The position numbers were made by a program, and so were the translations under genes. Below the pieces are notes generated by a model, which had not been told where the DNA came from, made no database searches, and worked only from the letters and a program-made list of their open reading frames with translations. A DNA stretch of 45,694 bases from an uncultured SAR324 cluster bacterium (lineage in GTDB: Bacteria; SAR324; NAC60-12): the NCBI GenBank assembly GCA_902564345.1, contig CACFAY010000008.1, positions 1-45,694 of the forward strand, read 5' to 3'. Positions 32,012 to 45,694 of this stretch are shown piece after piece; the first letter of the stretch is position 1; each line of letters opens with the position of its first letter.

Positions 32012-32103
32012 AATTAACATGGAACATATTTTTTAGCAGTATTTTTGCCTGTTTTGAATGAAGTGGGTTTTTAATTATATAATATCTAATTTTGGTGAAT
32101 AAA

Positions 32104-33060
32104 ATGGTTTTCAATCAAAAGTTACAGTGGTTGGGGCTTATCTTAATAAGTTTTTTATTCCTAAATGCTTGTGGAGATTTAGAGCCCGACATCCAAGATA
32201 CGCGTACTGTCACACTTAAAATGAACTTTCATGAAAAATCCTCATCACGAAGCAGGTCAAGTGTCTCTGAGTCAGAACTGAGTGAATATAGTACTCATCT
32301 TATTCTTGCTCTTCCTTCAAACGAGTCTTTGACAAGCAGCTATAATAATTATTATAGCAGCTATGCTCAAGGATTGATGGATACATCTCAGAATAATGTT
32401 AGCCTTGATATTCCACTCAACACGCAGATGAAAATATTCGCCTTTTTGTTCAAAGAAAACTACAGCTTGTATGAGTTGTTATTTGGAGATCAAAATGCGG
32501 TCTACTATGGAGAATCATCCAGTTTCTATATTAGTACAAGTAGCCATAGTCTAAGTCTAGGAATCACTTTGCAAACAGAATTAGAAGGAGAATGGAAATC
32601 AGCTTGTTATTCTAATTCAGATAATACCTATTCTATAGAGACAGTTACAATTGAAGGTAATATTCTAAATATAAAATATGAGATTCATTCTGACAATAGT
32701 TGCACTACAGATTATATTTTTATTGAAGAATCCCATACATTAGCGTCAGTAGGGGATACCGTGATTTTTTCAAACGGAAACACAGGTCGTGAATTTACAG
32801 TTACTATTGGTTCTACTCAAAAATATACGCCACAGTCTTCTTCAGCTGTGATCTCTTTTAACACAAATAGCGAATGTGGTAATAGTGACTGGCAATTGAA
32901 TACTGAAAAAGAGTGTAGTAATGATAATGCAGGTTACACTTTCTACTGTTTATATCAGCTTGATGGTAACTACCTTTACCCAAACTGTGATTCAAGCTCA
33001 ACTCCATCAACGTCTAGTATAAATACAGATGATGCATCAAATACTTTTGTTAAACAATAA
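32104..33060 (+). CDS. Exported lipoprotein of unknown function
   Basis: A 318-residue protein from the ATG at 32104; GGTGA at 32094-32098 is a plausible ribosome site six bases upstream, so the longer TTG-start version is less likely. The signal peptide ends in the lipobox LFLNAC (Cys at about 23). Mature residues about 30-170 are Ser/Tyr-rich with beta-type strands (VTLKMNFHEKSS, THLILALPSNES). The second half carries TELEGEWKSACYSNSDNTY and several Cys (about eight) that could form disulfides, including DSSSTPSTSS near the end. The lipocalin-like opening LEGEWKSAC-----T of the second half hints at a calycin-type domain. I do not assign a function. Confidence 0.6.
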   Translation: MVFNQKLQWLGLILISFLFLNACGDLEPDIQDTRTVTLKMNFHEKSSSRSRSSVSESELSEYSTHLILALPSNESLTSSYNNYYSSYAQGLMDTSQNNVSLDIPLNTQMKIFAFLFKENYSLYELLFGDQNAVYYGESSSFYISTSSHSLSLGITLQTELEGEWKSACYSNSDNTYSIETVTIEGNILNIKYEIHSDNSCTTDYIFIEESHTLASVGDTVIFSNGNTGREFTVTIGSTQKYTPQSSSAVISFNTNSECGNSDWQLNTEKECSNDNAGYTFYCLYQLDGNYLYPNCDSSSTPSTSSINTDDASNTFVKQ

Positions 33061-35726: not shown

Positions 35727-36692
35727 TTATGAATTATCTCCTAACTTCTCGAAAGGAGAAATTTTCAGAGGCCTACTTTTATTTTTTGAATAGTCTGTAA
35801 TGGTCATCGTGCAGTTTTTGTATTTTCCAGGTCCCGCTAACAGGAGGGAAATATAGTTGATACCAACAACTGCCTTTTCTACATTTCCCCTGCACTTGCC
35901 TTTGAAGTTGAGTGTCCCAGACTTGGAGGTTGTGAAGGCGTAGCTGGGTCTATCTGTATAAATCTTTTCTGGGACAGGATTGATCTCTTGAAGAATAGGA
36001 GGCGTATTATCGATTCTGACTGTGCCAAGAGGCAAGGGCTCACTTGTGTTCCCTGAGGCATCAACTAATTTAATTTCGCAGTCACTGAATTGGCCGTCAC
36101 TTGGAAAACTGACTAAGATTTCAGATATTCCCTTCTTTATTTTTCGAAGATTACCGCTGCAGTTTCCGTTGTAAGATAGTTCCCCTAATTCATTGACTTT
36201 TATCTCCATCTTTAGATTACGTCCCTGAACTTGAAAATCTCTAACCTTGGATAATTCTGGTGCAGAGAAGTCTAACTTGAATGTAGGCACATGTAGAGTG
36301 TCACTTTTGTTTCCTTCTGCGTCAATAACCTGAATGGAACAGTTTTCATAGTTTCCTTCAACCATTACTATAAATAGAATGTGATTATCTCCTTTGGCAG
36401 CATTAATGCTAGAACTGAAACACCCTCCAGCGTAAATTATTTTCCCAGACTTTGAACTGTTGAATCCATAGGAGACAAGATTATCTTCCTGTACTGACGT
36501 AGATTTAATTTGATACAGAATTGGTGATGATGCACCTGTGAGTTTTTTGATTAAAGATGTATAAATAGAATTATTTACTTTTAAATTATCTTTGCCCTCA
36601 GAAACATTCTCCTGAAACTGGCCACAGGAGAACAAAAGCAAAATTGCATAACCCACTAAAAACGATAAACCAAAAAGTCTAATTATTTTCAT
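35727..36692 (-). CDS. Lipoprotein with three Cys-pair Ig-like repeats
   Basis: A 321-residue lipoprotein with lipobox LLLFSC (Cys23). After a short linker it holds three modules of about 85-90 residues, near 55-140, 140-228 and 228-312. They share the sequence plan of the giant neighbour, in which a Gly-Cys near the middle (AGGCFSSS, NGNCSGN, KGKCRGN) pairs with a later Asp/Asn-Cys (YENCSIQV, FSDCEIKL, YKNCTMTI), then VxD-xxNxS and FxIDxTxP. The copies here are much more diverged than in the big protein. The two genes and the 186-residue lipoprotein at 43221 clearly come from one family. Confidence 0.7.
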   Translation of the reverse strand: MKIIRLFGLSFLVGYAILLLFSCGQFQENVSEGKDNLKVNNSIYTSLIKKLTGASSPILYQIKSTSVQEDNLVSYGFNSSKSGKIIYAGGCFSSSINAAKGDNHILFIVMVEGNYENCSIQVIDAEGNKSDTLHVPTFKLDFSAPELSKVRDFQVQGRNLKMEIKVNELGELSYNGNCSGNLRKIKKGISEILVSFPSDGQFSDCEIKLVDASGNTSEPLPLGTVRIDNTPPILQEINPVPEKIYTDRPSYAFTTSKSGTLNFKGKCRGNVEKAVVGINYISLLLAGPGKYKNCTMTITDYSKNKSRPLKISPFEKLGDNS

Positions 36693-36774
36693 AATGAATT
36701 AAAAAAAGTCTTAACCTAAACTAGGGAATTATCTATTCAAAATACTATTTTCAAAGTTGAAAATGATAGAAATA

Positions 36775-39700
36775 TTATAAACTTATTGCGGGTAGATTTT
36801 CACCCATTTCCCCAGAACCATCTCCACGAGTACTATTATCTCCAAGCCCCAATTGGCCCGAATCATTTAAGCCCCAGCAAATGATGGATGCATTGTCAAG
36901 AACTGAGCAAGTGTGACTATCTCCCGCAGAGATAGCCCTGGCCGTTATACCAGATCCTATGTCAACTACGGGAAGGCTGTCATCCATTTCGTTTGATCCG
37001 TCTCCACGGTTACTGATGTCTCCTAACCCCAATTGACCAGATTCATTAAAACCCCAACATTTAAGAGATGAGTTATCGAGTATGGCGCAAGTATGCGAAT
37101 TACCGGCTGAGACAAACTTAGCAGTTCTTCCAGTTCCAAGGTCAATAGATGAATTAGGTGGCGAATCAACTGAGGTATTTTTACCATGCCCCAACTGCCC
37201 AACATTTCCTCTTCCCCAGCATTTAACGGAATCATCATCCAGCACAGCGCAGGCATAACCTGTTCCAGTAGTGATAGATTTAGCGGTTCTTCCGGAACCT
37301 AAGTCAATTGCAGCAAGGTTGTCTCCCATTTCGCTTGATCCGTCGCCACGGTTGCTATTATCCCCTTGCCCCAATTGACCATAAGTATTATCTCCCCAGC
37401 ACTTTACGGCTGAATTGTCCAGCAGAGCACAAGTGTGGCTATCACCTGCGGAAATTCCCGTGGCAGTTCTTCCTGAACCGAGGTCAATCGCATTAAGATT
37501 ATCTCCCATTTCGCTTGAATTGTCTCCACGGTTGCTTGTATCTCCTAATCCTAGCTGGCCAGATGAGTTGGATCCCCAACACTTTACGGCTGAGTTGTCC
37601 AGCAGTGTGCATGTATGGCTATCACCAGTGGCGATTGCCGAGGCGGTTCTTCCTGTACCTAGGTCTATCACATTAAGATTATCTCCCATTTCACTTAAAT
37701 TGTCTCCACGGTTGTCGGTATCTCCCAGACCCAGTTGTCCGAAAGAGTTTGATCCCCAGCACTTTAGGGATGCATTATCTAGAATAGCACAAGTATGATT
37801 ATTCCCTGCTTCGATTGCCCTTGCAGTTTTTCCGGTACCCAGATCAATGACGGTGAGGTTACTTCCCATTTCACTTGAATTGTCTCCACGGTTGTCAGTA
37901 TCTCCTAATCCCAACTGTCCAGATGAGTTGGCTCCCCAACACTTGACTGAACCATTATCTAGCATGAAGCAGCTATGAGAATAACCAGTAGTTATTGGAG
38001 TTGTGGTAGTTGTGGTAAATCCATACGTCTGTGAGTACTGATTTGCCATAGTATTGCCTGCAATGTCTGAGACTGAAGTCGTAATTCTTATTTTGTACGT
38101 CGTTGAATATAGCAAAGTCAATGACGGATCCAGGTAAAATGTAATGTTATCAGAACTATCTGCATATGATGAAGACATCTGAAAACAACTACTGAAATCA
38201 TCTGAAGACAATTGAAGTGTCCCCGAGCAGCTGGTATTTGAAGTGTTCGAAGTTACCGTAGTGTTATCCATTGACTCTGAGAAAGTGACAGATATATTGT
38301 CACTTACTCCAACCGAACTCTGGTTGTCAGAAGGTGATGTGGAAGATACAGTCGGTGCAGTTGTTTCAATAGTGAAAGAACTTACTGAAAGGGCGTTGCT
38401 TGTATTGCTAGAACTATCTGAGACACTGATGGTGCAGTCACTGTAACTGCCCACACTCAGGGTGCTGAAAGTTACTGTATTGTCTGAAGCAGATGCGGAA
38501 GAAGTTGAACTGCTGCAACTCCCTCCATATGTGATGGTTCCTGCCTCATTTGAGGAAAATGTATAATTCGGTGTAGTGTCGCTTGTTGGTGTGGATACTG
38601 CCGTGACTTCGCTCAGAGTTGGAGCAGTCGTATCGATAATAAAAGTGCTTGCCGTTAAGGTGTTGCTTGCATTACTTGCATTGTCAGTAACTATAATAGT
38701 GCAGTTGCTGTAAGTTCCGTCCGGCAGGGCATTGAAAGTTATGGCATTGTTGCCCGAAGATGCAGAAGAAGTTGAACTGCTGCAGCTTCCCCCATATGTG
38801 ATTGTCCCTGCCTCGTTTGAGGAGAAGGTATAACTTGATGTATTATCGTTCGATGGTGTAGTTACAGCTGTAACCTCACTTACTGTTGGAGCAGTTGTGT
38901 CTATGGTGAAAGAGGTAACCGACAAGGAACTGCTCGCATTGCTTGCATTGTCAGTCACTAAAATTGTGCAGTCGCTGTAAGTTCCATCTGAGAGGATGTT
39001 TAAGGTTACAGTATTGTTATCAGCATTTGCTGAAGTATCTGAACTGCTGCAGCTTCCCCCATATGTGATTGTTCCTGCCTCATCTGAGGAAAAAGTATAA
39101 TCTGGAGTGGAGTCATTGGCTGGGGTTGTGACTACTGTCACTTCTGCCAATGTTGGGGCAGTAGTGTCGATAGTGAAGTTATCCACCGAGAGGTTGTCGC
39201 TAGTCAAACCACTGGAGGTGGCGGTCACGCTGATCTTGCAGTCGGAGTAGGTTCCTTCACTCAAAGCATTGAATGTTACAGTATTGTTATCGGCGGTTGC
39301 AGAAGTATCAGAACTGCTGCTGCAGCTTCCAGTGTAGTTGATTGTACCAGCCAGAGTCGAATAGAAGGTGTAATCAGGTGTGGTATCACTGGTTGGTGTG
39401 GTAACTGCCGTGATCTGTGTAAGGGCAGGAGTACTTGCACCAATGGTGAAGGAACTAACAGAGAGGTTGTTACTTGTGTTACTGTTATTGTCGGTCACCG
39501 CGATGGTGCAGTTGTCGTATGATCCATCATCTAATGCGGTGGAGTTGTCAGACTGTGTTAGGGTGACTGTGTTGTTTCCGGATATCGCAGAAGATGAGGA
39601 TGAACTCCCGCAGGCCCCTCCATAGCTGATTGTTCCAGCTTCAGTTGAAGAGAAGGTATAATCCGGGGTGCTATCAGTGGTTGGAGTTGATACTGCAGTT

Positions 39701-42700
39701 ACCTCTGCAAGAACAGGTGGTACGGCGACTGTAAATGAAGTTACAGAAAGGGTACTGCTAATATTCCCTGAAGAATCAGTAACAGTAATTGTACAATCTG
39801 AATATGTTCCATCATCCAGGGCTGAGAAAGTTATGGCATTGCTGCCTGAAGAAGCAGAAGAAGTTGAACTGCTGCAGCTTCCCCCATATGTGATGGTTCC
39901 TGCCTCGTTTGAGGAAAATGTATAACTAGGTGTACTGTCAGTAGTTGGTGAGGATACAGCTGTCGATTCACTCAAAGTAGGCGCAAGGGTATCGACCGCA
40001 TAGTTTGAAGTTGTAGCCGCAGGGCCACTATTCCCTGAGGTATCGTTATAACTGGTGGACAGAGAAAGGGTGTTGCTTGAATCTTCACTGCTATTATCAG
40101 GTGTGAAGGTGCCTGTCCAAGTAATGTTGTCGCTGCTGGTCATAGGAGTCGAAAGCGTACCATTGGGAGCCGTGATATCGTCAGAACTGGAAAAGCTAAT
40201 AACCGCCTCTGAGAAAACGAGTGTTACCGTCGCGTTATCGCCAATTTTCAAGGCTGTATCAGACATGGTGAATGTGATCACTGAAGGTGCTAGAGTTTCA
40301 ACTTCATAGTTTGAAGTTGTAGCCGCAGGGCCACTATTTCCTGCGGTATCAGTATAACTGGTGGACAGCGAAAGAGTGTTGCTGGCATCTTCGGTATTGG
40401 TCGTAGGCGTGAATGTACCAGACCATGTTATGTTGTCACTGCTGGTCATTGAAGTCGAAAGTGTACCATAGGAAGCGGTGATGTCGTCAGAACTGGAGAA
40501 GCTAATAACCGCCTCTGAGAAAACGAGTGTTACCGTCGCGGTCTCACCGATTGTTAGCAGAGAATCAGCAATAGTAAAGGAGCTCACAGAAGGTGCTGTG
40601 GTATCTATGGTGAAGTTATCAACCGAGAGATTATCGCTGGTCAAAGCGCTGGAGGTGGCGGTCACACTGATCTTGCAGTCGGAGTAGGTTCCTTCACTCA
40701 AAGCATTGAATGTTACAGTATTGTTATCGGCGGTTGCAGAAGTATCAGAACTGCTGCTGCAGCTTCCACTGTAGTTGATTGTACCAGCCAGAGTTGAATA
40801 GAAGGTGTAATCAGGTGTGGTATCATTGTCTGGTGTGGTTACTGCCGTAACCTGAGCCAGCACAGGTGTGGTTGCACCGACAGTGAAGGAACTTAGTGTC
40901 AAGTTGTCACTTGTATTGCTGTTTTCATCAGTAACTGCAATTGTGCAGTTGTCGTATGTTCCGTCACTCAATGCGGTAGAGTTGTCAGACTGTGTTAGGG
41001 TGACTGTGTTGTTTCCGGATATCGCAGAAGATGAGGATGAACTCCCGCAGGCTCCTCCATAGCTGATTGTTCCTGACTCGTTGGAACTGAAAGTATAATC
41101 TGGAGTTGGGTCCCCAGTTGGAGTTGATACTGCAGTTACCTCTGCAAGAACAGGTGGTACGGCAACGGTAAATGAGGTTACAGAAAGATTACTGCTAACA
41201 TTCCCTGAAGAATCAGTAACAGTAATTGTACAATCTGAATATGTGCCATCATCCAATGCTGTGAAAGTTATGGCGTTATTGCCCGAAGAAGCAGATGTAG
41301 TTGAACTGCTGCAGCTCCCTCCATATGTGATGGTTCCTGCCTCGTTTGAGTAAAATGTATAACTAGGTGTACTGTCAGCAATTGGGGAGGATACAGCCGT
41401 AACCTCACTCAAAGTTGGAGAAGTTGTATCAATTACAAAAGTACTCACCGAAAGTGCAGTGCTCGAATTACTAGCATTGTCAGTAACTATAATGGTGCAG
41501 TTACTGTATGTCCCATCATCCAGGGCATTAAATGTTATAGTATTGTTACCTGAAGTGGCAGAAGAAGTTGAACTACTGCAGCTTCCTCCATATGTGATTG
41601 TTCCTGAATCGTCTGAGGAAAATGTGTAACTTGATGTATTATCACTCGATGGAGTAGTAATTGCCGTAACCTCGCTCAGTGTTGGAGCCGTTGTATCAAT
41701 TATAAAAGTACTCACCGAAAGGTTGTCACTTGTGTTGTTTGCACTGTCAGTGACACTGATTTTACAGTCGCTATAAGTTCCCTCAGAGAGGGTGTTCAAG
41801 GTTACAGTATTGTTATCAGCATCTGCTGAAGTATCTGAACTGCTGCAGCTTCCCCCATATGTGATTGTTCCAGCCTCTATTGAGGAAAAAGTATAATTTG
41901 GTGTTGTGTCATTAGTTGGTGAAGTGACTGCTGTTACCTCAGTTAATGAAGGAGCAAAAACATCTGCAGTAAATGAGCTATCAGAGCCCATAGTGTTGAC
42001 TGCGGTAAAACCGGTGCTGTTATCGTAATCAAAGACGTACCAGAGATCTGCAGCACTGTATGGAACATTGAATGTGGTCACAGTGTCATTGTAATAGACT
42101 GTAACTGTAGCTTCCGAGGCTGCTAACAAAAGATTGTTATTACCTGCTTCATCAAAATTATGAACGTAGTAACTATAAGTCCCATCCCGCACAGCTGAGA
42201 TTGTGAGTGTTTCAGGGCCACATGTGCTGCAGCTTCCAATACCTTTATTGTTATCAAGATCAAGACTTACATTATCACTCAATTGCTCTATAGAGCAGCT
42301 GCTACAAGAGAAATTGTTAGTAGCATAGTAAAAACTACTGTATTCCCAATAAGTGTGAAACTGCTGATTAACAGAATTAGAATGTCCTTGTCCACTGAGA
42401 TTATCCGGTGCAGTGATGTGTGAGTCCAAATCATCAGTATCCGTTTTCCATGACAACACAATTCGCATTGCTCCAGCAGCTAATGTCGTAGAAATGAAGG
42501 CATCTTGCTCACTTTGGTCACCGCATGCATAAACGTGGAAGGTTGAAGATATATATCCGGAAATGCTGGTCTCAACGGTATACCAGCCAGCACTCATGCT
42601 GCTGAAAGAGTATTCGCCTGTTGTTCCAGTGGTGTCTGTTTCGGCTACTGTCCCGCTGGTCATATTTAATCCTCTTCTTGCGCTAAGAGAAACCCCGGTA

Positions 42701-43203
42701 ACTGCGCTATTACTTACTGCATCCTTAATAGTTCCTGAAATAGTACCTGAAGTACAGTTGTCTGAAAGCATCTTCAAAGTCGAAACAATAAGTGTCTGGT
42801 TATCTGAAAGTGTTGTTGACTGGATTTCATCTAGGTAACCACTTTTGCTATAAGTTATAGTGTAAGTACCCAAAACAAGAGTTTGACTAAAATCACCACT
42901 GCTGTTTGTAACAGTGTTAACTATCGTTGTTCCAGATTGTAAATAACTTATATCGACATCAGATAGAGCACTATTGCTGGATTTACTTAAGGCACTACCG
43001 GTAATAATTCCACCGGACAATGATGTATCTACAACAAACGAACTTATTTGTAGAGTTGTACTAGTATTTGAATCTTCCGTAAGACTTGAGCTACTTGTTG
43101 AATTATCAGAACTCGTGCTGCTTAATGAATCACTTGTACTACCGCAGGAGATCAAGATGAGACCAAAAAGGAATATTAGAATTATATTTAAGAATATTTT
43201 CAT
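36775..43203 (-). CDS. Giant (2142 aa) lipoprotein with Ig-like and RCC1 repeats
   Basis: Lipobox LILISC (Cys20) makes this an anchored surface or periplasmic lipoprotein. Next come two carboxypeptidase-regulatory-like modules (about 60-145 and 150-240; GTISGTIKD-type starts) and a YfaP/DUF2135-like beta domain (about 244-400; DTDDLDSHITAP). Eleven Cys-pair Ig-like repeats of about 86 residues follow (about 416-1620). Two further Ig-like domains with TIGETATVTLVFSEAV or its close variant interrupt them between repeats 5 and 6. An SbsA-type Ig domain (about 1620-1730; TVSSTSPSDNQSSVGV) leads into seven RCC1 repeats of 60 residues to the end. Each RCC1 unit has CxxLDNxxxxCWGxNxxGQLGLGD. Ser/Thr/Asn-rich, with no sorting signal. 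Probably an adhesin or binding protein. Confidence 0.72.
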   Translation of the reverse strand: MKIFLNIILIFLFGLILISCGSTSDSLSSTSSDNSTSSSSLTEDSNTSTTLQISSFVVDTSLSGGIITGSALSKSSNSALSDVDISYLQSGTTIVNTVTNSSGDFSQTLVLGTYTITYSKSGYLDEIQSTTLSDNQTLIVSTLKMLSDNCTSGTISGTIKDAVSNSAVTGVSLSARRGLNMTSGTVAETDTTGTTGEYSFSSMSAGWYTVETSISGYISSTFHVYACGDQSEQDAFISTTLAAGAMRIVLSWKTDTDDLDSHITAPDNLSGQGHSNSVNQQFHTYWEYSSFYYATNNFSCSSCSIEQLSDNVSLDLDNNKGIGSCSTCGPETLTISAVRDGTYSYYVHNFDEAGNNNLLLAASEATVTVYYNDTVTTFNVPYSAADLWYVFDYDNSTGFTAVNTMGSDSSFTADVFAPSLTEVTAVTSPTNDTTPNYTFSSIEAGTITYGGSCSSSDTSADADNNTVTLNTLSEGTYSDCKISVTDSANNTSDNLSVSTFIIDTTAPTLSEVTAITTPSSDNTSSYTFSSDDSGTITYGGSCSSSTSSATSGNNTITFNALDDGTYSNCTIIVTDNASNSSTALSVSTFVIDTTSPTLSEVTAVSSPIADSTPSYTFYSNEAGTITYGGSCSSSTTSASSGNNAITFTALDDGTYSDCTITVTDSSGNVSSNLSVTSFTVAVPPVLAEVTAVSTPTGDPTPDYTFSSNESGTISYGGACGSSSSSSAISGNNTVTLTQSDNSTALSDGTYDNCTIAVTDENSNTSDNLTLSSFTVGATTPVLAQVTAVTTPDNDTTPDYTFYSTLAGTINYSGSCSSSSDTSATADNNTVTFNALSEGTYSDCKISVTATSSALTSDNLSVDNFTIDTTAPSVSSFTIADSLLTIGETATVTLVFSEAVISFSSSDDITASYGTLSTSMTSSDNITWSGTFTPTTNTEDASNTLSLSTSYTDTAGNSGPAATTSNYEVETLAPSVITFTMSDTALKIGDNATVTLVFSEAVISFSSSDDITAPNGTLSTPMTSSDNITWTGTFTPDNSSEDSSNTLSLSTSYNDTSGNSGPAATTSNYAVDTLAPTLSESTAVSSPTTDSTPSYTFSSNEAGTITYGGSCSSSTSSASSGSNAITFSALDDGTYSDCTITVTDSSGNISSTLSVTSFTVAVPPVLAEVTAVSTPTTDSTPDYTFSSTEAGTISYGGACGSSSSSSAISGNNTVTLTQSDNSTALDDGSYDNCTIAVTDNNSNTSNNLSVSSFTIGASTPALTQITAVTTPTSDTTPDYTFYSTLAGTINYTGSCSSSSDTSATADNNTVTFNALSEGTYSDCKISVTATSSGLTSDNLSVDNFTIDTTAPTLAEVTVVTTPANDSTPDYTFSSDEAGTITYGGSCSSSDTSANADNNTVTLNILSDGTYSDCTILVTDNASNASSSLSVTSFTIDTTAPTVSEVTAVTTPSNDNTSSYTFSSNEAGTITYGGSCSSSTSSASSGNNAITFNALPDGTYSNCTIIVTDNASNASNTLTASTFIIDTTAPTLSEVTAVSTPTSDTTPNYTFSSNEAGTITYGGSCSSSTSSASASDNTVTFSTLSVGSYSDCTISVSDSSSNTSNALSVSSFTIETTAPTVSSTSPSDNQSSVGVSDNISVTFSESMDNTTVTSNTSNTSCSGTLQLSSDDFSSCFQMSSSYADSSDNITFYLDPSLTLLYSTTYKIRITTSVSDIAGNTMANQYSQTYGFTTTTTTPITTGYSHSCFMLDNGSVKCWGANSSGQLGLGDTDNRGDNSSEMGSNLTVIDLGTGKTARAIEAGNNHTCAILDNASLKCWGSNSFGQLGLGDTDNRGDNLSEMGDNLNVIDLGTGRTASAIATGDSHTCTLLDNSAVKCWGSNSSGQLGLGDTSNRGDNSSEMGDNLNAIDLGSGRTATGISAGDSHTCALLDNSAVKCWGDNTYGQLGQGDNSNRGDGSSEMGDNLAAIDLGSGRTAKSITTGTGYACAVLDDDSVKCWGRGNVGQLGHGKNTSVDSPPNSSIDLGTGRTAKFVSAGNSHTCAILDNSSLKCWGFNESGQLGLGDISNRGDGSNEMDDSLPVVDIGSGITARAISAGDSHTCSVLDNASIICWGLNDSGQLGLGDNSTRGDGSGEMGENLPAISL
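36800..37995 (-). repeat. Seven RCC1 repeats, 180-base period
   Basis: The DNA repeats with a period of exactly 180 bases over most of the block; for example CTCCCATTTC-type strings recur at 37323, 37503, 37683 and 37863. Unit 5 lacks six residues. Each unit codes for a 60-residue blade with two Cys, CWG and GQLG. Seven such blades are the usual number for a closed beta propeller. Confidence 0.85.
38360..41975 (-). repeat. Eleven Cys-pair Ig-like repeats in tandem
   Basis: Units of about 258-276 bases, each coding for TLSEVTAV-TP--D-TP-YTFSS-EAGTI-YGG-C, a second Cys in YSDC and a SFTIDTTAP linker. Units 5 and 6 are separated by two 306-base units of a second kind (about 40010-40600) that start SVSSFTIAD. 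The same Cys-pair module occurs twice in the lipoprotein at 43221 and three times, diverged, at 35727. Confidence 0.8.
39173..41402 (-). repeat. Higher-order duplication, copies 1437 bases apart
   Basis: The segments at about 39173-39965 and 40610-41402 are near-identical over roughly 790 bases at an offset of 1437 bases (479 codons). The event therefore copied repeats 3-5 onto 6-8 as a block rather than one unit at a time. Between them, the two SVSSFTI-type domains are themselves near-identical at 306 bases offset (about 40181 versus 40487). Such long recent repeats can collapse in assembly. Confidence 0.75.
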
Positions 43204-43220
43204 CCTTTTTTGCCATTTCC

Positions 43221-43781
43221 TTAATTTTCCGTAACTGTAATGCTACAGTTATCGTAGGTCCCGTTTGCCAGAGCATCGAAGGTTATAGTGTTATTCCCAG
43301 CTACTGCTAAAGTGGTACTTGAAGAACAGCCACCTTCGTAAGTAATTGTTCCTGCCTTAGAAGATGAAAATGTATAATTTGGTGTAGTATCTATGGTTGG
43401 AGTATTCACTGCAGTAACTTCTTCAAGAACGGGTGGTATTACTACAGTAAATGAGGATATTGTGTGAGAACTACTCACATTCCCATCAGAATTTGTAACT
43501 GTAATTGTACAATCTGAATATGTCCCCTCGCTCAATGTATTTAAGGTTATAGTATTATTCCCAGCAACAGCCTCAATGGTGCTTGAAGAGCAGGAACCTC
43601 CGTATGTTATGGTCCCTGCTTCTGTCGATGAAAAAGTATAATCTGGAGTAGAATCGTTTGTTGTAGTTGCTATTGCAGAAACTTCTGAAATACTAGGATT
43701 TGTGGATGTGTCAACATCATCCTCGCTGCTTAAGCAGGAAGTCAGTAGGGTTGTTAAGAAGATGATGAGCAGATTTTTCAC
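43221..43781 (-). CDS. Small lipoprotein with two Cys-pair Ig-like repeats
   Basis: A 186-residue lipoprotein with lipobox LLTSC (Cys16) and two copies of the module found eleven times in the neighbouring giant protein. Repeat 1 covers about 30-112 and repeat 2 about 116-186, with TPDYTFSSTEAGTITYGGSC and TITYEGGC Cys contexts. Repeat 2 ends at ITVTEN, before the linker, where the stop falls. Sequence identity with the giant protein is high enough to suggest a recent duplication. The gene ends 18 bases upstream of the giant gene's start, so the two are likely cotranscribed. Confidence 0.7.
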   Translation of the reverse strand: MKNLLIIFLTTLLTSCLSSEDDVDTSTNPSISEVSAIATTTNDSTPDYTFSSTEAGTITYGGSCSSSTIEAVAGNNTITLNTLSEGTYSDCTITVTNSDGNVSSSHTISSFTVVIPPVLEEVTAVNTPTIDTTPNYTFSSSKAGTITYEGGCSSSTTLAVAGNNTITFDALANGTYDNCSITVTEN

Positions 43782-43815
43782 TTGGTTCCAAAATTTGATC
43801 TTAAAAAAATTATTG

Positions 43816-44250
43816 TTATTGATTTTTTGATTGTTTCTTTTTTTCTAATATTTCTTGTAAACGTTTTCTCGCGTCTTCTCGCTTTTTCCTCCAAATCTTA
43901 CCCACATTAAATTTAGTCATTTTTGAAACTCTTGCTCTGGAAATAGAGATTTCATTTTCTGCAATAAAAATTTTCCCAGTAGAAACAAGTTTGGCATTAT
44001 TTTCAACGAATTTGATTTTTGCATACTCAAAATAACCTGACTCTAGATTCCTGAACAAAACAGTACCCTTCTGAGATTCCCACCAGCTGAAATACTCATC
44101 GCCTCTATGATAAGCCTTGAATTTAGCTCCATTTGGTTGTGTTATTTCCAATAAAACAGGCAAGGCAGGAACAGCAAATATATTACCATAACCTACGTAA
44201 CATAAAGACAATATAATTAAAAAATTTTTGATGATTTTAGTCTTAAGCAT
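43816..44250 (-). CDS. Free-standing protein resembling an M6-peptidase propeptide
   Basis: A 144-residue exported protein. The signal peptide ends near IFA (about 26). What follows, VPALPVLLEITQPNGAKF then YHRGDEYFSWWESQKGTVLF and GYFEYAKI, is the pattern that opens M6-type (InhA-like) metalloproteases as their propeptide (QPDG--F----GDE-F-W-E---G---------G-WEYA). Here it stands without a protease domain and ends in a Lys/Arg-rich helix (KKREDARKRLQEILEKKKQSKNQ). It lies eight bases after the stop of an M6 protease gene. It could act in trans as an inhibitor or folding aid. The match is from memory of the family and should be tested. Confidence 0.6.
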   Translation of the reverse strand: MLKTKIIKNFLIILSLCYVGYGNIFAVPALPVLLEITQPNGAKFKAYHRGDEYFSWWESQKGTVLFRNLESGYFEYAKIKFVENNAKLVSTGKIFIAENEISISRARVSKMTKFNVGKIWRKKREDARKRLQEILEKKKQSKNQ

Positions 44251-44258
44251 TTTTATTC

Positions 44259-45694
44259 TTAGAAGCTTACGTCAAAAGTCATTGAGTCCCCTGCTACCGA
44301 AATGTTATTGATTGTAATACCGGATGAATTTCCTAAATAGGTTTTCGAATTAGGATTGGTACTATCACTGAATTCAGTTTTGTTCCCATTGAAAAAAAGA
44401 CTAGTCTGCTTTCCGTTATGAGACCCTAAATCAAGACCAGCATTTGAAGCTTCTTCAAGGTCCACCAATTTATGAGTGTAGTTAGAATTGCCTGACTGGT
44501 TTTCATCAATGTGCCATATTGCAATTCCGCTAGTGTTGTCATTTCCCCCGATCAAATAATCCAATCCTGACTGATATCCGTCATGGCCAATGTTTTCTAA
44601 CATAAAATACTCCTCATTATCTCCCGAAATATTTATGATTTTTGTATTAAAATTAGCATGAGTTGTATGGTATAAGGTTACTGAAGAATTATTGGATGAA
44701 ATGTTATCTGGTGTCTCAAATATCACCCCATTATAATTTGCAGTATTCCCATACCAGTTATAGCACCAGCTTCCATCAGATTTATATTTATTCCAAGCTA
44801 TTAAATGAACTGGAGATGATCCAGGATTTTCACCTTGTTTCCTTCCCCAACTACCACCGCTCATTAATCCAAAAGAACCTATGCCTGCCCCTGTTGATGA
44901 TGTATCATAAAGGTCAGGATAACAGAAAATTGCGTGTCCTAGTTCATGAGCTATGATTCCTATGGTTGCATCATGATTCCATTGCCTCTCTCCAAAAGTT
45001 GAGTATCCTTGATAACCACATTCTCCAATTTTATATCCATCAAAAGTTTCATTGGTTATCAAACAGCTTGCATGAGCCCAAATCCCTGGTACGCCGCCAG
45101 CTGCAGATTCTCCTCCTGCGACAATGAACATCACCTGTAGCTCTGTTTTGCTTAAATGACCATCGGAATCTTCATCATATGAAGAAAAATTAATATATGG
45201 ATCTGCCTTGCTAAGAGCATCTACAAACCAGGGTGCCGCATCTTTGCCATTTGCTTTTCCGGGAACTACGAAATTTGGATGATTACCACTCAGGCTGACG
45301 GTTATGATCCCGTCGTTAGAAGTCCCATGTGTTTCATCTGCTGGATAGACCATAAATTTCCCATAAGATACTTCCTGCCAAAATTCATTAAGCTGGCCTG
45401 AATCATTTCCAAAAATTTTGTTTGCCCAGCAGTTTGACTCACTTACAAATGACTGATATGCAAAAGGATCTCCATAACTTTCTTGGTTGACGCTACCATC
45501 GAATGTAATTTGAATGATTACTAAATTGATTTTTAAACCGCCACTTGAGACCGTACTTGGAATAGAAGGAGCTGAAAAAGTGGTACAGTCTTCCTGAACT
45601 AATATATTGGATTCTGTACCATCCTCTGCTATGCCAGTAACGATTGCAAACTCTTCTACCTGATCATAATGACAGCTATTTATTGCAGATATTA
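44259..45694 (-). CDS. M6-family metalloprotease (start outside the window)
   Basis: The frame stays open from the stop at 44259 to the right edge, so the first methionine at 45353 is internal and the true start lies beyond 45694. Visible residues are about 478. LKINLVIIQITFDGS, then LNEFWQEVSYGKFMVYPADE, is the M6 opening, DEDSDGHLSKTEL an EF-hand-like calcium loop, and GIIAHELGHAIFCYPDLYD (HELGH at 44934-44948) the zinc site with the catalytic Glu. GLMSGGSWG follows as the Met-turn. Near the C-terminus are FMLENIGHDGYQSGLDYL and IAIWHIDEN, also typical. It should be secreted. The substrate is unknown; the adjacent repeat lipoproteins are possible targets or partners. Confidence 0.82.
   Translation of the reverse strand, partial: ISAINSCHYDQVEEFAIVTGIAEDGTESNILVQEDCTTFSAPSIPSTVSSGGLKINLVIIQITFDGSVNQESYGDPFAYQSFVSESNCWANKIFGNDSGQLNEFWQEVSYGKFMVYPADETHGTSNDGIITVSLSGNHPNFVVPGKANGKDAAPWFVDALSKADPYINFSSYDEDSDGHLSKTELQVMFIVAGGESAAGGVPGIWAHASCLITNETFDGYKIGECGYQGYSTFGERQWNHDATIGIIAHELGHAIFCYPDLYDTSSTGAGIGSFGLMSGGSWGRKQGENPGSSPVHLIAWNKYKSDGSWCYNWYGNTANYNGVIFETPDNISSNNSSVTLYHTTHANFNTKIINISGDNEEYFMLENIGHDGYQSGLDYLIGGNDNTSGIAIWHIDENQSGNSNYTHKLVDLEEASNAGLDLGSHNGKQTSLFFNGNKTEFSDSTNPNSKTYLGNSSGITINNISVAGDSMTFDVSF

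Follow-up and report, generated by a model that had tools for sequence, protein, structure and literature searches.

A conserved gene pair of an M6 metalloprotease and a free propeptide-like protein in SAR324 bacteria and Campylobacterales

Gene organization at the end of a SAR324 contig

The window, that is, the whole stretch of DNA that was analyzed, is an entire 45,694-b contig from a SAR324-clade genome that is 51% complete. Five ORFs were verified at the end of this contig, all on the minus strand together with the features described within them, and in the order of transcription they encode an M6-family zinc metalloprotease, a free propeptide-like protein of 144 aa (hereafter PEP), and lipoproteins of 186, 2142, and 321 aa. 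The M6 gene (44259..45692) is visible over 477 aa; because the contig stops at 45,694, its 5′ end is absent, the ORF has no start, and the N-terminus of the protein is missing. A preliminary description of this DNA had named the protein an M6 metalloprotease, and this identity was confirmed with the TIGR03296 model (137.8 bits against a cut-off of 110.8) and by the intact catalytic HELGH (HExxH) motif at 44934..44948. In the zinc motif as a whole (HELGHAIFCYPD, 44913-44948), the Asp stands one residue further on than in the HExxHxxGxPD seen in other members, such as HELGHVFGLPD in L057.

The PEP gene (43816..44250) lies 8 bp 3′ of the M6 stop codon and was recognized by its homology to the N-terminal domain of M6 proteases that carry this domain fused and by its kept adjacency. 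Residues 1 to 26 (44173..44250) are a predicted signal peptide of the signal peptidase I type, with the cleavage site placed between GNIFA and VPALP from the sequence and from the constant register in homologues. The mature protein is predicted to begin with the arm VPALP (44158..44172; consensus xPAxP), which we propose from its conservation and from an AF2 model to be an active-site plug.

Lipoproteins with a shared Cys-pair repeat

Lipobox-type signal peptides (LFSC, LISC, and LTSC) start all three lipoproteins, and the preliminary description was right that one Cys-pair repeat runs through them. The repeat has approximately 89 aa with two Cys each, and a repeat profile found it in 11 full copies in the 2142-aa protein (36775..43203), in two copies, the second incomplete, in the 186-aa protein (43221..43781), and in three diverged copies in the 321-aa protein (35727..36692), with domain E-values of 1e-24 to 1e-41. 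The distance between the two Cys is 27, rarely 28 or 34, and both were kept in 31 of the 31 repeats that cover the two positions in the window genome and related genomes. Because the two Cys always co-occur, a disulfide between them is plausible. Further domains of the 2142-aa lipoprotein are Big_12, Big_5, and a carboxypeptidase-regulatory-like domain, followed at the C-terminus (36775-38000) by seven RCC1-type repeats; each of the latter has a Cys pair 10 residues apart, a spacing unlike the 27-residue pair of the Ig-like repeats.

The repeat is present in 14 of the 52 genomes of the phylum and is common in SAR324. In the genome of the window, contigs C35, C104, C65, and C49 encode additional repeat proteins, none of which lies near an M6 gene, and the repeat copy on C49 contains stops. 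The second repeat of the 186-aa lipoprotein reaches only position 72 of 88, the next gene follows after 17 bp, and this protein may be a truncated stub. Elsewhere in the window, a 322-aa lipoprotein (CGDLEPDIQDTRTVTLKMNF..., 32092-33060) resembles both the N-terminal part of a 477-aa repeat lipoprotein on C65 (L087:494-1927) and a neighbour of that protein, which suggests that the 322-aa lipoprotein and the C65 proteins are paralogues in a shuffled lipoprotein family.

The conserved unit is the M6–PEP gene pair

The unit that is conserved across genomes is the M6–PEP gene pair, and all three repeat lipoproteins lie outside it. The pair in its split form, with M6 and PEP encoded by two genes, was found in 26 genomes (14 SAR324, 10 Campylobacterales, and two gammaproteobacterial), nearly all genomes surveyed being draft MAGs. 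Separate searches of 98 genomes for M6 and for PEP gave identical places, and in SAR324 the one always occurred with the other. The order (M6 then PEP) and the strand were the same in every genome with an intact contig, and the gap in intact pairs ranged from -17 to +21 bp, mostly being -4 or 7 to 11 bp. Scanning 84,980 species genomes with a pattern, together with whole-genome searches, added further occurrences. PEP was present, always free, in nine of 299 sampled Campylobacterales genomes and in another Sulfurovum genome, and free PEP also occurred in a gammaproteobacterium and in a Thiotrichaceae genome; on intact contigs, every free PEP that was detected lay beside an M6 gene. The distances among M6 proteins and among PEPs were correlated over 23 pairs (Spearman 0.54; none of 2000 permutations was as high), which indicates co-inheritance, not binding. 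One locus, L213, was set aside as a chance match.

The preliminary description had taken the five genes together as a processing or release system for surface lipoproteins, in which the M6 protease would act on the Cys-pair repeat lipoproteins. The common strand and short gaps agree with this in the window genome only, and an operon is possible there. When adjacency was checked across genomes as the preliminary description had proposed, the M6 and propeptide-like genes stayed together, whereas repeat proteins were absent from all 16 contigs with M6 or PEP that were read in 13 other SAR324 genomes. In genomes with both the M6 pair and the repeat, the two are on different contigs or more than 150 kb apart, and either also occurs alone: for example, G012, G013, G014, G025, and G048 have the pair without the repeat, and G001, G018, G022, and G023 have the repeat without the pair. 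The usual neighbours of the pair in the genus are CrcB-like and patatin-like genes (names given by sequence reading), and in the closest relative (G016:C50; M6 79% and PEP 72% identical) unrelated genes come after the pair. Because the repeat is scattered over many loci and adjoins M6 in no other genome, the repeat lipoproteins beside M6–PEP are a local addition and their grouping is by chance, as judged by the criterion that the preliminary description had itself set; the proposed action on surface lipoproteins is therefore left without support, and we regard a five-gene system as extremely improbable.

Split M6 proteases are mostly lipoproteins and lack the PEP domain

Split M6 proteins scored above the TIGR03296 cut-off, with 129.1 bits for L089 and 139 to 171 bits for forms other than this and the window protein, and the HExxH motif was intact in the complete ones. 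PF05547 (Peptidase_M6, InhA-like) gave no match above its gathering cut-off for the window M6 or L089 and matched two other split forms, L192 and L099. The closest full-length relative of the window M6 (L070/L089, 79% identical) is a 496-aa lipoprotein with no N-terminal PEP domain, and none of the complete split M6 proteins in SAR324 or Campylobacterales had this domain either. A lipobox signal was present in all complete SAR324 cases and in most complete Campylobacterales cases, some N-termini of split M6 proteins being masked or lost at contig ends; L189 is a split M6 that is not a lipoprotein. Some split forms have PKD or Ig-like domains ahead of the catalytic domain. A split M6 that is a lipoprotein therefore has its N-terminus already taken. 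In G005, the M6 and PEP genes (L077) are both broken into several frames, as are the repeat ORFs on contig C3 of this genome (555-564 kb), which may reflect decay or long-read errors.

Fused M6 proteases carry a PEP homologue as their N-terminal domain

PEP matched no Pfam family up to E=10, which includes the AprI/Inh metalloprotease inhibitor family, and no NCBIfam family. A profile built from free PEPs gave matches of 1e-10 to 1e-20 in fused M6 proteins, at their N-terminus in the region between the signal peptide and the catalytic domain, so that the term "propeptide-like" used in the preliminary description was borne out. By homology, PEP is thus the N-terminal domain of an M6 protease set free as a protein of its own. 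In the fused architecture seen elsewhere, the PEP domain is joined to the N-terminus of M6 directly behind the signal peptide. Eighteen genomes of a 331-genome sample outside the phylum had PEP, and all 16 loci fetched were fused; a weak 203-aa match in G105 was set aside. The fused form was seen in Bacteroidales, Lentisphaerae, Verrucomicrobia, Phycisphaerae, and Gammaproteobacteria.

Mature PEP, with the cleavage site predicted from sequence, starts with xPAxP, 23 residues before an invariant GDE, and the distance from this predicted N-terminus to GDE was constant in 21 free and 37 fused PEPs. A Pro at position +2 was found in 16 of the 21 free and 29 of the 37 fused proteins. In 37 homologues, the arm was nearly as conserved as the core (P2 86%, A3 92%, and P5 95%). 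The scan that found the loci used PEP motifs in its pattern, so the conservation of QPDG and GDE is biased upward; the arm was not part of the pattern. The AF2 model of PEP has a pLDDT of 86, with the arm unstructured before strand 1, and AF2 without an alignment gave a pLDDT of 30 on a fused homologue. A Foldseek search of the PEP model against PDB gave no match at E<=0.001, with InhA not among the 50 matches listed, and a PDB profile search with PEP returned chance matches only. The Thiotrichaceae PEP (L191:8104-8598) has 164 aa, with a C-terminal extension that is absent from other PEPs.

A similar arm motif was present at the mature N-terminus of seven of 11 M6 proteases that have no PEP, versus 14 of 377 background ORFs (Fisher p=1.4e-7), and at the N-terminus of none of 22 split M6 proteins. 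Since the arm is conserved and occurs in PEP-less but not in split M6 proteases, we read it as a putative active-site plug that would need a free N-terminus.

These data also bear on the idea that PEP is an accessory domain for binding a substrate or partner, fused or separate by happenstance and exerting no control of activity. The PEP fold matches no known propeptide or inhibitor, and the name propeptide for the fused PEP is based on where it lies in the chain, both of which would suit an accessory domain. However, PEP lies at the extreme mature N-terminus of the fused forms in constant register, and among those examined none had it at an internal or C-terminal position; nor was free PEP seen apart from an M6 gene on intact contigs. 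We consider an accessory role quite unlikely.

Origin of the split form

A tree of 66 M6 domains was built with IQ-TREE under LG+C20. The 25 split rows formed one clade with moderate support (87/52) that was present in 88% of bootstrap trees, and a 100/99 clade enclosed it together with five fused rows. As the split rows nest as one clade among fused rows, the simplest reading of the tree would be a single origin of the split form from a fused ancestor, with later spread between phyla. A simple gene break does not explain the change because the M6-first order reverses that of the fused form; the split form may have arisen by duplication and loss. Gene fission by a frameshift or an assembly error was considered and rejected, given the reversed order, the signal peptide that each PEP has of its own, and the occurrence in 26 genomes.

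Proposed function of PEP and comparison with known systems

We think it probable that M6 and PEP constitute a two-gene operon in which PEP acts in trans on the anchored protease as a propeptide or inhibitor, its free N-terminus plugging the active site. In the ancestral state, the protease would have had PEP as its N-terminal domain; once a lipid anchor or adhesive domains came to precede the catalytic domain, no free N-terminus would have been left for the propeptide, and PEP would then have come to be made as its own protein from a gene downstream of M6. Sec export and signal peptidase I would give PEP the fixed mature N-terminus xPAxP, the arm would enter the active-site cleft of M6 and block the zinc, and the beta-rich body of PEP would dock on the catalytic domain. 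We infer that PEP would bind and inhibit M6, and that activation would follow from separation of the two: in the periplasm M6 may be held latent, and PEP may be lost from it, for example, once the lipoprotein reaches the cell surface. More tentatively, and as a possibility that we would not favor as it stands, M6 proteases may generally be kept latent by a plug with a free N-terminus, so that anchoring of the protease would lead to a split zymogen activated by place, with PEP remaining periplasmic and M6 going to the surface.

Propeptides often act as chaperones, and PEP could thus be mainly a foldase of the anchored M6, with inhibition secondary or absent. A propeptide chaperone able to act in trans has precedent in the CspB prodomain (PMC3567191), and the strict co-occurrence and near-zero gap would fit a folding partner equally well. 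On the other hand, the arm, fixed to the signal peptidase site, is the most conserved part outside the GDE core, which is better explained by a plug, and M6 proteases that have no PEP body possess the arm too. A foldase role for PEP therefore appears unlikely to us.

The nearest known relatives of the split pair are the fused M6 proteases (TIGR03296; for example, L102, L107, and L119), which share with it the catalytic family, the N-terminal domain, the xPAxP arm, and GDE. They differ in being one chain with PEP first, whereas the split pair consists of two genes with the protease first and the protease usually lipid-anchored. InhA (PDB 4yu5/4yu6) likewise has an M6 catalytic domain, and a fused relative matched 4yu5 at 2.9e-10; by contrast, the window M6 had no PDB sequence match and the PEP model had no significant one. 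Arolas et al. reportedly described in 2016 that InhA is kept latent by an N-terminal segment of its propeptide on the zinc. Because the PEP model has no significant PDB fold match, this mechanism could be transferred to PEP by analogy alone.

Trans-acting inhibition that depends on a free N-terminus is known for AprI, a periplasmic serralysin inhibitor encoded near its metalloprotease. Cleavage by signal peptidase produces the N-terminal residue of AprI, which is placed on the zinc, and inhibition is abolished by an N-terminal fusion (PMC4070987). Like AprI/Inh, PEP is separately encoded and exported through signal peptidase I with an N-terminus made by this peptidase (predicted in the case of PEP), and by analogy based on the arm, PEP may work as AprI does. 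However, serralysin belongs to an unrelated protease family (M10B), AprI is not the ancestral propeptide of its protease, and PEP is without a Pfam match.

Genes for a protease and a small specific inhibitor lie side by side, as in M6–PEP, in SpeB-Spi, staphopain-staphostatin, and the Bacteroides C10 systems, although these are cysteine proteases, unlike M6. Lipid anchoring is likewise predicted for the Bacteroides C10 proteases that have inhibitors encoded next to them (PMC3462683); these proteases retain their own propeptide, so that the inhibitors form an extra layer. Listeria Mtz-Tim, a metzincin adjoining a TIMP-like lipoprotein (PMC8235301), resembles M6–PEP in the adjacency of a metalloprotease and an inhibitor-like protein, but in Mtz-Tim the lipid anchor is on the inhibitor-like partner, which is cleaved, whereas M6–PEP has it on the protease.

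A search of the open literature found no natural metalloprotease propeptide that had turned into its own gene with the enzyme anchored instead. Separately encoded protease inhibitors are known, and engineered propeptides can work in trans; to our knowledge, an ancestral metalloprotease propeptide that has become its own gene in one clade is undescribed. The M6–PEP pair makes it possible to test directly whether M6 latency depends on a free N-terminus, PEP is a candidate inhibitor for M6 proteases, and a small unnamed protein found in SAR324, Sulfurovum-like, and other marine bacteria gains a putative function. At one campylobacterial locus (L196:8757-13032), two tandem M6 genes without a PEP domain are accompanied by a single PEP gene, and here one PEP may serve two proteases.
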